From: Chloroflexota bacterium
Lineage (GTDB): Bacteria; Chloroflexota; UBA6077; CF-72
DNA length: 36,271 bases
Direction of reading: 5' to 3'
Assembly (NCBI GenBank): GCA_005883405.1
Contig: VBGG01000166.1
Span: 1-36,271, forward strand
The notes beneath the pieces were generated by a model. It saw only the letters and a list, made by a program, of their open reading frames with translations. It made no database searches and was not told the origin of the DNA. The stretch's first letter is position 1. Each line of letters begins with the position of its first letter. The position numbers and the translations under genes are program-made. Positions 19,870 through 36,008 of the stretch are shown here, one piece after another.

Positions 19870-21349
19870 CGTTGAGCAGTGGGGCATCTTTGAGCTGGAG
19901 CTGGCCGGACCTGACGGCGGCAATCCGTTCCAGGACGTTGAGCTCAGCGCTGTCTTTACGCACAAACACCGCGCCATCGAAGTGGATGGCTTCTATGACG
20001 GCGACGGGATCTATCGCGTGCGCTTCATGCCGGATACGCCCGGCACGTGGAGCTACAAGACGCAGAGCAATGCCCGGGCACTGAGCGAAAGAGAAGGCAC
20101 GTTCAACTGCACCGCAGCGGCGTCGGCGTGTAACCACGGGCCAGTGCGCGTCGCCAACACGTACCACTTCGCCTATGCCGATGGCACGCCGTACAAGCAG
20201 ATCGGCACCACGTGTTACGCCTGGACGCATCAGGGCGACGAGCTCGAGGAACAGACGCTGGCGACATTGCAAGAAGCGCCGTTCAACAAGATGCGCATGT
20301 GCGTCTTTCCAAAGAGCTACGACTTCAACCACAACGAGCCGGAGTTCTATCCCTTTCCGCTGCTGGTTCGGGGATCCTCCGACCCACCGCATTTCTGGGA
20401 GCCCGCAGGCTGGGAGTTCGACTGGAGCCGCTTCGAGCCGGCGTTCTTTCGGCACCTTGAGCAGCGGGTTGGCGATTTGCAAAAGCTCGGCATCGAGGCA
20501 GACATCATCCTGTTCCACCCTTACGACCGCTGGGGCTTTATCAGGATGGACGCGGAGACCGACGACCGCTACCTCCGCTACGTCGTTGCGCGGCTGGCTG
20601 CCTACCGCAACGTCTGGTGGTCGATGGCTAACGAGTGGGATCTGGCCAGAAACAAGACCTTGGCCGACTGGGATCGTTACTTCCGCATCGTGCAGGAGAG
20701 CGATCCGTATGACCACCTGCGCTCGATCCACCACTGCTTCGTGATGTATGACCACTCGAAGAGCTGGGTGACCCACCAGAGCGTCCAGCATTCAGATCTG
20801 GCGCAGGTCGCCGTCTGGCGCGAGCAGCACAAGAAGCCGGTGGTGGTCGACGAGTGCTGCTACGAGGGCAACATCCCCCACCGCTGGGGCAACATTACCG
20901 GCGAGGAGATGGTGCGCCGTTTCTGGGAAGGCACGGTGCACGGTGGCTACGTCGGCCACGGCGATACGTTCCTGGATCCACAGGACATCCTGTGGTGGGC
21001 CAAGGGCGGCGTCCTGCGGGGCCAGAGCGCGCCGCGGCTGGCCTTCTTACGACGCATCCTGGAGGAGAGTCCGGCCGCCGGTCTCGAGCCGCTCAAGAAC
21101 ACCGGCATCATGCCCTACTGGTTTCCCTGCGCCGGCCAGGAGCATCAGTACTATCTAACGTATTTTGGCGTGCACCGGCCGTCGCGCATGAGGTTTGACG
21201 TGCCCGAGGGCGAGCAGTACCGCGCCGAGATCATCGATACCTGGGAGATGACGGCCAGCCCGGTGGCGGAACCGGTGGTCCGTGGCAGCTGGGTCGAGCT
21301 GCCAGCCAAACCGTACCAGGCGCTGATCCTCCGCCGACAGACAGAGTGA
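19853..21349 (+). CDS. DUF5060/DUF4038/DUF5605-type glycoside hydrolase-like protein, no signal peptide
   Basis: Ig-like N-terminus ([42 protein letters not shown]), TIM-barrel motifs [10 protein letters not shown] and [13 protein letters not shown] overlaps the end of the ATPase gene. Confidence 0.82.
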
Positions 21350-21376
21350 GTGAGATCAGCCGCACACGCGCGGCGA

Positions 21377-22726
21377 TTACGGGCGTGGCGGCAGCGATAG
21401 GCCCAGGTTCTCCCGCAGCGTCGGGCCCTCGTACTCGAGGTGGTACAGACCACGCCGTTGGAGCTCCGGGACCACCCAGCGGACGAAGTCGGCGTACGCG
21501 CCAGGCACGTGGGTCGCGGCCACGACGAAACCATCGCACGCACCTTCCGCAAACTGCTCCTCGAGGAAGTCCGCAACCTCGCGCGGGCCGCCGACCACCG
21601 CGCCTTCGACGGTGCCGCGAGCGCTGAATTGGACGAAGTCTCGCACGGTCGGGTTCGACTTGCCGCTCGCGGCAAGGACACGGTCGCGGATGCCCTGCAA
21701 GCCCGAAATGCTCTCGAGCTCGGCCTGGGTGAACGGCTCGTCCAGACCCTTGCTGGCGACGTCGAAGTTGATTGCCTCCGCCAGCAGCGACAGAGCGTCG
21801 ATCTCGACCGGCAGCTGCTTGATGATGGCCATCCGGTCCTCAGCCTGTGCTCTGGTTGCACCGCACACCGGCATGACCAGCGTGCAGATCTTCATCTGCC
21901 GCGGGTCGCGCCCCGCATGCTCCGCTTCCTGCTTCAAGGCGGCGTAGCTGCGCTTGCCTGATGCGAGGTCGGCCGCGGTGCTGAAGATGACCTCGCCCCA
22001 ACGAGCCGCGAATCGTCTGCCACGACCACTCTGCCCGGCCTGAATGATCACCGGGTGGCCCTGGGCCGACCGCGGCACGGTGAACGGTCCCCGCGAGCGG
22101 AAGAACCGACCTGCATGGTCCAGACGGTGGACGCGGCTACCGTCGGCGAAGCGACCGCTCTGCTTATCCACGATCAGCGCGTCGTCCTCCCACGCGTTCC
22201 AGTGGCCGAGCACCACTTCCATGAACTCGTCGGCGCGCTCGTAGCGCAGATCGTGCTCCATCACCTCCGCGTGGCCCATGTTGAACGCCTCGCCGTCGTT
22301 CAACGAGGTGACCACGTTCCAGGCAGCACGACCCCCGCTCATCAGGTCGACAGTCGCGAACAGGCGGGCGACATGAAACGGCTCGTAGTAGGTCGTGGAG
22401 CATGTGGCCCCCAGTCCAAGGCGCTCGCTCGCCATACCCATGACCATCAGCGTGACGATGGGGTCGAGTTTGACGCAGCGAATCCCGTGCTCGACGGCGT
22501 GCTGGTGATCGTTACCGTAGCGATCTGGCATCGCCAGTCGATCGTCGAAGAAGGCCAGATGGAACTTGCCCGCTTCGAGGATGCGGGCGATCTCGGCGTA
22601 ATAATCGGCGGAGAGAAAGTCGATGCGCGATTCAGGATGACGCCAGGAAGCCGGTAAGTTGGTGCAGTTTTGGGCCTGAAGGAAGCCCACCAGCACCATC
22701 TGCCGCGCCATGCAACGGGTCAGCAT
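21377..22726 (-). CDS. LLM-class flavin-dependent monooxygenase (NtaA/SnaA/DszA family)
   Basis: GGRAAWNVVTS and HPVIIQAGQSGRGRRFAARWGEVIFS motifs; start may be internal (MARQMVLVGF). Confidence 0.92.
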   Translation of the reverse strand: MLTRCMARQMVLVGFLQAQNCTNLPASWRHPESRIDFLSADYYAEIARILEAGKFHLAFFDDRLAMPDRYGNDHQHAVEHGIRCVKLDPIVTLMVMGMASERLGLGATCSTTYYEPFHVARLFATVDLMSGGRAAWNVVTSLNDGEAFNMGHAEVMEHDLRYERADEFMEVVLGHWNAWEDDALIVDKQSGRFADGSRVHRLDHAGRFFRSRGPFTVPRSAQGHPVIIQAGQSGRGRRFAARWGEVIFSTAADLASGKRSYAALKQEAEHAGRDPRQMKICTLVMPVCGATRAQAEDRMAIIKQLPVEIDALSLLAEAINFDVASKGLDEPFTQAELESISGLQGIRDRVLAASGKSNPTVRDFVQFSARGTVEGAVVGGPREVADFLEEQFAEGACDGFVVAATHVPGAYADFVRWVVPELQRRGLYHLEYEGPTLRENLGLSLPPRP

Positions 22727-31736: not shown

Positions 31737-32585
31737 CTACACGATCTCGAGCGGTTGCGGACCCGTTGGGGGTGGAAAGGCCAGATCCAGCCAGGCGAGG
31801 TCGCCGCTCGTCAAGGGCACCTCGAAGGCCGCGCGATTCTCAATAACGTGCTCAGGATCGCTTGATTTGGGTATGGCAATCACTCCCGGCTGCCGCAGGA
31901 CCCAGGCGAGCACCACCTGGGCCGGCGTCGCGGCGTGTCCAGCGGCGACAGCCTCGAGAATGGTGTGACTGGACAGGCGCCCCTGCTCGATTGGTGAGTA
32001 CGCCATAATCGGCAGCCCTCGGCCGCGGCACCACGGCAGCAGGTCGTACTCGATGCCGCGCCGGGCCAGGTTGTACAGCACCTGGTCGGTGGTCACCTCC
32101 ACTCCACCCGGCAGGCTGACCAGCTCCTGCATGCTTGCCAGATCGAAGTTGCTGACGCCCCAACGGCGAATCAGACCGGTGTGCTTGAGCACGTGAAAGG
32201 CATCCAGTGTCTCCTGGAGCGGTATGCCGCCACGCCAGTGCAACAGGTACAGGTCCAGGCGGTCCGTCCCCAAACGTCTCAAGCTACGCTCACAGGCGAC
32301 AATGGTGCCGCGCCGAGTCGCGTGATGGGGCAGGACCTTGCTGACCAGGAACACGTCGTCCCGACGGCCGTGGATTGCCTCCCCGACGAGCTCTTCCGTG
32401 GCGCCGCCGGCATACATCTCGGCGGTGTCGATGAGCGTCAGCCCGAGCTCGAGCCCAAGACGCAAAGCCGCGATTTCACGCGTGCGTGACTTCGGATCCT
32501 CGGCCATATGCCAGGTTCCCTGGCCAAGTACCGGCACTGCCTCGCCATCGGGAAGCGTCACCCGGCGCATGTCAGTAGTGGTCAT
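31737..32585 (-). CDS. Aldo/keto reductase
   Basis: LIDTAEMYAGGATEELVGEAI; VSKVLPHHAT; DLYLLHWRGGIPLQETLDAF; GVSNFDLASM. Confidence 0.95.
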   Translation of the reverse strand: MTTTDMRRVTLPDGEAVPVLGQGTWHMAEDPKSRTREIAALRLGLELGLTLIDTAEMYAGGATEELVGEAIHGRRDDVFLVSKVLPHHATRRGTIVACERSLRRLGTDRLDLYLLHWRGGIPLQETLDAFHVLKHTGLIRRWGVSNFDLASMQELVSLPGGVEVTTDQVLYNLARRGIEYDLLPWCRGRGLPIMAYSPIEQGRLSSHTILEAVAAGHAATPAQVVLAWVLRQPGVIAIPKSSDPEHVIENRAAFEVPLTSGDLAWLDLAFPPPTGPQPLEIV

Positions 32586-32665: not shown

Positions 32666-33259
32666 TTACTGGTCTGCCCAGACCTCATGGAACTTCTTGC
32701 CGTATGGAAAAAACCGGTCGCGTTCGCCACGTTCCCAGGCGGCGCGCATTTCCGGTGCGCTGATGTCCCAATCCGGGCGGATCCGGCGCGTCACCTCACG
32801 CAGGTCCGACCACAGCTCGGCGATCGACGGGCGTCCCCAGAACCAGTAGCCGTAGTAGATCTTGTAGATCTTGAGCGCCGGCTCCAGGACCAGCGTGTGC
32901 GGGATCATCGGGTCGTTCGTCGGGTCAGTATATTCCTGGATGTCCAGGTCGCGTTGGACCACCCGTTCCGGGTCCGATAGGAAGGGCCACTGGGCGCCCT
33001 CGCCATCCCGGAATTCGTTGGTTCTGAGCAGGTTGTCGGTGGAAATAGTCACAATCCGTGTGTAGCCCACCTTCACCTCAGGATAGAAATGAACCATGTC
33101 GCGCACCTGGCGACGCTCTTTTGGTCAAAAATGGCCGCGCGAGAGATGCAGGATCATTGGATCGTCCCGCTGTAGCTCGGACAGCCGGCGCTTGCGGCCA
33201 GTGTGATCCGCCAATTCGTAATCCGGGAATAGCGACCCGGGCTGCATGTCAGGGCGCAT
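32666..33259 (-). CDS. Peroxiredoxin-like redoxin with in-frame UGA at the expected catalytic Cys; candidate selenoprotein (197 aa with Sec)
   Basis: Upstream frame MRPDMQPGSLFPDYELADHTGRKRRLSELQRDDPMILHLSRGHF, TGA at 33125..33127, then same frame PKERRQVRDMVHFYPEVKVGYTRIVTISTDNLLRTNEFRDGEGAQWPFLSDPERVVQRDLDIQEYTDPTNDPMIPHTLVLEPALKIYKIYYGYWFWGRP.... Confidence 0.75.
33098..33114 (-). promoter_or_regulatory. Candidate bacterial SECIS hairpin downstream of the UGA
   Basis: RNA-sense GUCGCCAGGUGCGCGAC, 10 nt after the UGA: five contiguous pairs (GUCGC/GCGAC), optional sixth C-G pair with one bulged C, apex AGGU. Confidence 0.55.
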
Positions 33260-33651
33260 GGTGACTCCAGGTACAGTGTGCTCCACGGCGCATAAGAGGC
33301 GCGTAGGAAAAGCTATCAGAAAACGGCCCAGGCAGCAGACTACGCCGTCGGAGTGCACCATGACAGGCTGATGCGACATGTGCAGATCGGTTCGGCACCG
33401 CTCGCCAATCGCGTGCTGGTCATCGACTCCAATGGTCTGCGTCTCGGGCCGCCATTCCGGGCGTTGCGAGGCGTGCTCACAGGAATACCCGTGCCTATCG
33501 AGGGTGTAGCCGGAGCGCACGACATAACGTAGGACTGGACAGCAGGTCAGGCGGAGTTGGCACCCGTAGTTCGCCCGCTGCACGATCTCGCCACTACGCT
33601 CGAATCGTCGGATGGCGCCGCACAATGAACACGCGGGTTGTCTCAGGCGCG

Positions 33652-34254
33652 TCATGTCGTTTTTCGTGCCAGCGCGCGGCTCTGGGGACCGAGGCGCGTC
33701 TCGATGTCGACCTTCGATGCCTTCACATACACGCCGGATTCGTCTGCTCGCTCGATCCATTCGGCCGGGATGCGAATGTCGTGGCCGAAAATTCCGTCGG
33801 CCCGTATCCAGAAGGCGTCCAGCTCGCCTGTTACCGGATCGAGCTCGACCTGGTCCACGCGCCCGATGTCACCATCAATCGCGTGCACTCGCGCACCACT
33901 GGTGATGTCGACATGGTGCTGGCCGAGTCTTTTTCTCTGCCAGACGGGAATATAGAAAGTTCCGTCGGGGTACGGTCCGGCCGCGGTCCATGCTGGCGGC
34001 GGAGCGAGGAGCTCGTTGTAGGCGAACTCCGGGAGCTGGTCGAGTTCATTCTCGTCCAGCGTCAGAACGACTTCGTCACCGACGGCTCGCTCGATGAAGT
34101 CCAGTGGGACGAGGACGTCGCGACTCAGCAAGTGTCCCTTCAGAACGACAATTCCGGTGACCGAGTTGTCATCCAGGTCAACGAGTACGCGGTGCACATG
34201 GCCGACATCGCGGCCGTGCCGCGTGCGGACGCGGGCGCCAATTTCGATCTTCAT
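33652..34254 (-). CDS. PRC-barrel domain protein (two PRC-barrel-like segments)
   Basis: IEIGARVRTRHGRDVGHVHRVLVDLDDNSVTGIVVLKG...DVLVPLDFIERA and ITSGARVHAIDGDIGRVDQVELDPVTGELDAFWIRADG...IRIPAEWIE. Confidence 0.8.
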   Translation of the reverse strand: MKIEIGARVRTRHGRDVGHVHRVLVDLDDNSVTGIVVLKGHLLSRDVLVPLDFIERAVGDEVVLTLDENELDQLPEFAYNELLAPPPAWTAAGPYPDGTFYIPVWQRKRLGQHHVDITSGARVHAIDGDIGRVDQVELDPVTGELDAFWIRADGIFGHDIRIPAEWIERADESGVYVKASKVDIETRLGPQSRALARKTT

Positions 34255-36008
34255 TTCATCTGTTTCCAGTTTCGGCCGGCCGAGTTAAAAAACGCGTATG
34301 GCGCGCGCGTGAAAAGCTTATTGACGACGGACTCCACGCCCGGAAGGCCACGCGCCAGGCGCTCGGCCGCTGCGCTCACCTCAGGTGTTGCGGCTCGACC
34401 GCGCAGTGTCACCCTACCCAGAAGGGCTGACACCTCGAGGTCCTGGATATCCAGACCTTCTCCACGCAGCGCCCGCTCGACACCGACGACAAGCTCTTCA
34501 TCTGCAATCAGCTGGTTGTCGACCGACAGAACGCCGGGAGTGCTGCGTGCCAGCTCCTCGGCGGCTTGTTTCAGGTCGCAGGTGCGCACGCGTCCGCTCA
34601 GGCGGACAAACCCTCCGTACACCTCGATCTTCTGCGTGTAACGATCGATGCCCTGAAACCGCGGATCCTCGTTCAGACGCCGTAACAGCTCGATGCGCAT
34701 GTCGTCGTCTGAGCGAAACTCTGGCAGGTCCAGGAGATCATCGCGGCTTGCTACAAGCTCGATACGTTCCGGGGTGATGGAGCGTGCCCAGCTGAGGGGA
34801 ATCACCACGTCGCGCGGAAGGAGCAACGCGCTCGAGATGCGGACAACGAGGTGCGTCACTGCGCCACTCTGCCGATCGAGCACGACGCGGCGTACCCTGC
34901 CCGCCGGGCCATCGGTGCACATTACTTCTGTTCCGACTGAGACGTTCGGCGGCACGTAGTCGGGAAAACGGTCGAGGTCGCACGCGTCCGCGCGGAGGTA
35001 CGCGACATCCTCGTCGGTGCGTTCGATGACCTCGAGCGGAATCACCACGGACCGATTACCGCGCCGAACAACGACCTGCCGTACACGAGGGCTGCCCGGA
35101 TCGGCAATCAATCGTTCAACCTGGCCTACAACATCGCCGCCGCAAATCACCTCTTTTCCAATGCCTAGCTCCACGAACGCTGCGCGGTGTGTGGTTGCTG
35201 TTGTTGTTTGAATGCGCAGGTCGCGCAGACGCGGTCCGTCGACCGAGAGCACTTCGATACATATGCCTGGCAGCTGGACCACGTCGCCAGGTTTCGGCAC
35301 GCGCCTGAGGTGGTCGTACACCAGCCCACCAATCGTCGCGAAACGAGTTTTGGGGAATCGCACGTCGAGTACCCGTTCGAGCTGATGCAACCTGGCCGTG
35401 GCCCCCACAACCGCGATGCCGTTGTCGATTCGACGGATTGCAGCCCGGCTGTCGTCCGAGTATTCATCTGGAACGGGGCCGACGAACTGCTCGAGCAGAT
35501 CCTCGAGCGTCACGAGACCGGCAAACCCGCCGCGCTCGTCCACGACGAGCGCGATGTGGGCGGCTTGACTACGCATCGCCCGCACCGCCTCGAGTACCGA
35601 CAGGGTGTCGGGCAGAGACAGCGCCGGACGTGCCAACTTGCCTGCCCTTGGCAAACCGCGCGATGACGTGGTCCGCGTTGCCAGCTCGCGCAGAAGGTCC
35701 AGCGCGTGCAAAATGCCGATCGGCCGATCCGGGCTATCACGGTACACCAGTGCGCGTGTGTGGCCGTATGCTGCCATCTGCCGCGCTGCTTCCCGGGCGG
35801 AGCAGTTTTCAGAGACAGCCACGACGTCCACGCGAGGAACCATCACATCGCGCAGCGTCAGCTCGGGCAAGCTCAGGGTCGCTTCCAGGTATTCGAGCAG
35901 GTCGGGTGGAATGGCACCAGTGCCAACAGCCGCTCGTACCAGCGCATGAAGAGATGCGCCGTCTCGTGGCGGAAACAGTCGAGCGAGCATGCGATACGCG
36001 AGGGTCAA
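34251..36008 (-). CDS. CorC/HlyC-like CBS-pair protein fused to PRC-barrel-like and two BON domains (no DUF21 membrane domain)
   Basis: LTLRDVMVPRVDVVAVSENCSAREA...HIALVVDERGGFAGLVTLEDLLEQFVGPVPDEYSDD; IGGLVYDHLRRVPKPGDVV (CorC_HlyC); PRC-like repeats; BON (YGGFVRLSGRVRTCDLKQAAEELARSTPGVLSVDNQL; LLGRVTLRGRAATPEVSAAAERLARGLPGVESVVNKL). Confidence 0.85.
   Translation of the reverse strand: MTLAYRMLARLFPPRDGASLHALVRAAVGTGAIPPDLLEYLEATLSLPELTLRDVMVPRVDVVAVSENCSAREAARQMAAYGHTRALVYRDSPDRPIGILHALDLLRELATRTTSSRGLPRAGKLARPALSLPDTLSVLEAVRAMRSQAAHIALVVDERGGFAGLVTLEDLLEQFVGPVPDEYSDDSRAAIRRIDNGIAVVGATARLHQLERVLDVRFPKTRFATIGGLVYDHLRRVPKPGDVVQLPGICIEVLSVDGPRLRDLRIQTTTATTHRAAFVELGIGKEVICGGDVVGQVERLIADPGSPRVRQVVVRRGNRSVVIPLEVIERTDEDVAYLRADACDLDRFPDYVPPNVSVGTEVMCTDGPAGRVRRVVLDRQSGAVTHLVVRISSALLLPRDVVIPLSWARSITPERIELVASRDDLLDLPEFRSDDDMRIELLRRLNEDPRFQGIDRYTQKIEVYGGFVRLSGRVRTCDLKQAAEELARSTPGVLSVDNQLIADEELVVGVERALRGEGLDIQDLEVSALLGRVTLRGRAATPEVSAAAERLARGLPGVESVVNKLFTRAPYAFFNSAGRNWKQMK

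Follow-up and report, generated by a model that had tools for sequence, protein, structure and literature searches.

Results

A peroxiredoxin-like gene with one in-frame TGA

The gene analyzed here lies on the minus strand of a 36,271-nucleotide stretch of DNA from a Chloroflexota bacterium, which we refer to as the window. It occupies positions 32666..33259 and comprises 197 codons followed by a stop codon, running from an ATG at 33259-33257 to a TAA at 32666-32668, and its sole interruption is a TGA at 33125-33127 (codon 45). An earlier note on this DNA had described one continuous minus-strand frame broken only by this TGA, and we reproduced both the coordinates and the frame. Direct inspection of the sequence revealed a Shine-Dalgarno-like GGAG on the same strand (33265..33268), 5 nt upstream of the ATG. 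The start at 33259 is conserved, with relatives aligning from residue 1 (M-R-x-D-I-x-P-G). Under translation table 11, a gene caller would report only a 146-aa fragment with a GTG start (33106..32666) and a probably spurious 211-aa ORF that terminates at this TGA.

The Pfam AhpC-TSA match (PF00578) spans the TGA with an E-value of 5e-14 and 52.7 bits against a gathering score of 26, and the GC content by codon position is coding-like on either side (0.70/0.41/0.73 and 0.62/0.41/0.78), indicating that the frame across the TGA is not due to chance. We found no further stop and no frameshift in the 197 codons, and conserved family residues flank the TGA on both sides, in agreement with the previous description of both flanks as well-formed family sequence. 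The joined protein contains no cysteine at all, and its active-site motif reads LSRGHFUPKE, where U denotes the TGA.

The downstream neighbor is an aldo/keto reductase gene (31737-32585, minus strand). Upstream, also on the minus strand, are genes for a PRC-barrel protein and a CBS/CorC_HlyC/PRC/BON multidomain protein (33652-36008). An operon link to redox metabolism is not evident from these flanking genes. An Rfam scan of the whole window gave no match. Elsewhere in the same bin, contig C105 carries a remnant sequence closely related to the window gene (L128, about 1270-1501), in which codons 1-14 are fused out of frame to approximately codon 136 onward and the middle part with the Sec codon is gone; this is either a pseudogene or a mis-assembly.

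The TGA occupies an invariant cysteine column

Relatives were collected by scanning one genome per species across 85,462 GTDB species, and the best 80 of 128 were kept. Among these best 80, the codon-45 column is TGC in 57, TGT in 22, and TGA in a single sequence from a Ktedonobacterales metagenome-assembled genome (L085, the same record as G313/L196). Thus, 79 of 80 have Cys where the window gene has TGA, which bears out the proposal that the UGA sits at the expected catalytic Cys. The motif given in the earlier note, (F/Y)RGxWCPxC, did not hold: the relatives have (S/A)RGH(F/Y)CPK(D/E). The second cysteine that such a CxxC center implies is likewise missing from the joined protein, which reads UPKE and has a single-residue center. 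Most Cys homologs also have one cysteine only (98 of 112 sequences). Given CPK(D/E) in the relatives and no Cys in the joined protein, we assign the predicted window protein, as judged from these sequences, to a "1-Sec" type.

More distant relatives also have TGA at the codon-45 column: L104, L106, L107, and L120 from the window's own order, and L203 from elsewhere in the phylum. Their motifs are UPKC in L104 and L120, UGKC in L106 and L107, and UPKE in L203, which falls in a sister group. Sec-containing peroxiredoxin-like proteins are common in the clade of the window organism. In L104 (G014:C289), a TAA also lies inside the matched stretch, reflecting either a real stop with similarity continuing past it or decay. 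In a midpoint-rooted tree, Sec and Cys rows are interspersed, the Sec rows do not form one clade, and at least four changes are needed; the window gene sits on a long branch.

A bSECIS-like hairpin follows the UGA

The published bacterial SECIS (bSECIS) model specifies a loop of 3-9 nt, a stem of 4-16 bp, a G within the first two loop positions, a spacing of 16-37 nt, and a folding energy no higher than -7.5 (PMC13188914). The earlier note had named a bSECIS search as a check on its reading, and a bSECIS-like hairpin is indeed present on the minus strand at 33098..33114 (GUCGCC-AGGU-GcGCGAC, loop 33105-33108). Its geometry is within the model: the loop lies 16 nt after the UGA and reads AGGU, with G in second position, and the stem contains 6 bp and one bulge. 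The isolated hairpin folds at -7.3 kcal/mol, narrowly missing the published limit, and the best fold of nt 4-45, which leaves out the UGA, reaches -9.6 and contains the hairpin. When the UGA is included, the register of the minimum free energy fold changes, and the 48-nt stretch is no better than shuffled sequences (z = -0.18). Since this z-score is uninformative, we relied instead on a model-based comparison with Cys homologs.

In that comparison, which was designed after the hairpin had been seen, a stem of -7 or better was found in all seven Sec sequences versus 3 of 92 Cys sequences (one search; Fisher p = 8e-9, kinship ignored). Shuffles of the window sequence were equally good in 12 of 500 cases. 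L104, L106, L107, and L120 have the hairpin GGUGC-AGUU-GCGCC at the same position as in the window, and L196 has CCAGC-AGUU-GCUGG there, although the search script preferred another, more stable hairpin in that sequence; the best hairpin of L203 lies farther downstream. In an ungapped alignment of six sequences, three of the five stem pairs are changed on both sides, and agreement with the window stem is understated in this alignment because the bulge shifts the window's own stem. We regard these apparent compensatory changes among the Sec relatives as supporting, not decisive.

Selenocysteine machinery and a second UGA peroxiredoxin in the host genome

The host assembly (G000) measures 6.17 Mb in 682 contigs, with 89.75% completeness and 7.9% contamination. 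Of the Sec machinery to which the earlier note had pointed, selA and selB are present, adjacent on contig C615, with 545.9 and 332.8 bits, both above the cut-offs; selA extends to the contig end. The encoded SelA shares 79 and 74% identity with its counterparts in two same-genus genomes. Of the contigs compared, C615 correlates best with the window in tetranucleotide composition (r = 0.91), and it is also the longest of those stretches. Both observations make mis-binning of selA and selB unlikely.

The other part of the machinery, tRNA-Sec (selC) and SelD, was not found in this incomplete bin. Six matches to the tRNA-Sec model turned out to be Ser, Leu, Tyr, and Gly tRNAs according to ARAGORN. 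The best SelD match, L100, scored 92.8 bits, below the cut-off of 125, and it resembles similar-scoring second matches in genomes that also hold a true SelD. Both same-genus genomes, however, carry tRNA-Sec (66 bits) and SelD with an in-frame TGA, and tRNA-Sec together with a TGA-containing SelD is present in most of 60 relatives sampled across the phylum (G001-G060). Gaps in the host assembly are therefore the best explanation for its lack of selC and selD. The SelD genes of the Chloroflexota sample (loci such as L160-L171) mostly contain TGA themselves.

A PF00578 scan of the host genome identified a second peroxiredoxin gene with one TGA (L207/L215), on the plus strand of contig C468 at 21060-21551, the scan match itself covering 21090-21482. 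The protein around the TGA reads FDFGRV-U-RAELEGFR, and peroxiredoxins in the PDB have Cys at this position. The TGA is conserved in genomes of the genus and order (G010, G002, G001, G009, and G003). This putative second selenoprotein independently supports the view that the host actively decodes Sec.

Predicted fold

An AlphaFold2 model built with 27 sequences (pLDDT 76, pTM 0.78) contains a strand at residues 35-40 and a helix at residues 46-64. The predicted helix starts directly after residue 45, which places this residue at the N terminus of the active-site helix in the model. Foldseek matched the model to Bcp, 1-Cys peroxiredoxins (Prx6, AhpE, and LsfA), and ResA.

Discussion

We conclude with high confidence that the window gene encodes a 197-residue peroxiredoxin-like (AhpC/TSA) selenoprotein in which UGA45 is decoded as Sec at the catalytic Cys position. 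The Cys column, the hairpin shared with Sec relatives, and selA/selB support the selenocysteine reading originally proposed. Very probably, this Chloroflexota bacterium reads UGA as Sec in a small peroxide- or thiol-handling enzyme, precisely where the sole catalytic cysteine would be. Counting against this conclusion are the single TGA among the best 80 relatives, the 7.9% contamination of the bin, the failure to find tRNA-Sec and SelD, the flat z-score of the 48-nt stretch, and a hairpin energy slightly short of the published limit.

One alternative is that the gene is a pseudogene, descended from a Cys enzyme whose catalytic codon mutated to a stop. Close relatives nearly all have Cys, the same bin holds the decayed, out-of-frame-deleted relative on C105, and the tree branch leading to the window gene is rather long, all of which fit such an origin. 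We nevertheless consider it very unlikely, given 197 codons without another stop or frameshift, family residues conserved on both sides of the TGA, and a stop falling precisely on the one catalytic codon; the hairpin shared with UGA relatives and the presence of selA/selB and another conserved UGA peroxiredoxin in the genome also speak against decay. An error in sequencing or assembly that turned TGC or TGT into TGA might be suspected in a fragmented draft, yet it would have had to strike exactly a Sec-prone codon with a bSECIS-like hairpin placed as in Sec relatives, and UGA recurs at this column in independent assemblies; we judge this explanation highly improbable. Neither decay nor a base error predicts the hairpin, the exact codon, or the recurrence in relatives.

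General reassignment of TGA (e.g. to Trp or Gly) or readthrough in the host is suggested by nothing beyond the in-frame TGA itself and is contradicted by stop usage, which leaves it negligibly probable. TGA terminates five of the nine clear window genes (PRC-barrel, CBS/CorC/BON, Clp_N, LarA, and FMN reductase), selA and selB also end in TGA, and the only in-frame TGA of the window gene sits at the Cys column.

For the selenoprotein, we propose that SelB and Sec-tRNA-Sec would bind the hairpin just 3' of codon 45, so that UGA is decoded as selenocysteine. Sec45 would then be the only residue to carry out the peroxidatic (or thiol-disulfide) reaction, its selenolate reducing peroxide and becoming a selenenic acid. 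In 1-Cys peroxiredoxins, the oxidized residue is resolved by an external thiol. Because the window protein lacks any cysteine, the oxidized selenium would likewise need an external thiol, such as thioredoxin, glutaredoxin, or a low-molecular-weight thiol. By analogy with established peroxiredoxin chemistry, this is the most likely course for a single redox residue, and a role as a thiol-disulfide or other reductase is possible. We infer Sec insertion itself, as well as the substrate and the reductant.

Standard gene callers split the protein in two, and annotation thereby misses the enzyme and its chemistry. Within the family, Sec and Cys forms can be paired at 60-70% identity, each having one catalytic residue and mostly no further cysteine, which makes a clean setting for studying the contribution of selenium to a peroxiredoxin-like active site. 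It also suits asking how gain and loss of the bSECIS hairpin accompany the codon change.

Comparison with known systems

Exchange of Sec for Cys in AhpC/TSA proteins is well known, and the window selenoprotein, belonging to this general kind, is modestly new. Peroxiredoxin-like thiol:disulfide oxidoreductase selenoproteins of the UxxC/UxxU type (PF00578; PMC13188914) have in common with it the AhpC/TSA fold, a Sec in the first active-site position, and a bSECIS downstream. The near Sec relatives L104, L120 (UPKC), L106, and L107 (UGKC) are of that type, whereas the window protein, with UPKE, has no resolving Cys or Sec at +3. TxxU peroxiredoxin selenoproteins (PF00578/COG1225; PMC13188914) share the peroxiredoxin fold and a single Sec as the peroxidatic residue, but their PxxxTxxU motif is absent from the window protein (RGHFUPKE). 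No NCBIfam model fits: the best match, the SelL-related redox protein NF040769 (E = 4e-6), scored 26.5 bits against a curated cut-off of 120.

The 1-Cys peroxiredoxins (e.g. Mycobacterium tuberculosis AhpE, PDB entry 1xxu; Prx6 family) resemble the window protein in predicted fold and lone catalytic residue; they differ in having Cys in place of Sec, share only about 16% identity with it, and typically carry a PxxxT/SxxC motif that it lacks. An AhpC selenoprotein of Blastococcus saxobsidens was aligned in 2017 with proteins of the Chloroflexota relatives Sphaerobacter and Ktedonobacter (PMC5330540, S4 Fig). The Blastococcus protein is an AhpC-type Sec protein with a UAG codon, and the proteins in that alignment might be related to the window gene.

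A 2026 catalog of prokaryotic selenoproteins (PMC13188914) lists peroxiredoxin/TlpA-like forms with TxxU, UxxC/UxxU, UxxS, UGC, and CxxU, and the UxxE/D form (UPKE) is absent from it. Our results lean toward a subfamily outside current catalogs, made up of peroxiredoxin-like enzymes of a single-Sec "UPK(E/D)" type that lack Cys, within a mainly Cys family, with repeated Sec/Cys exchange (the window gene, L196 of Ktedonobacterales, and L203 in the sister group) and a bSECIS-type hairpin in every UGA gene.
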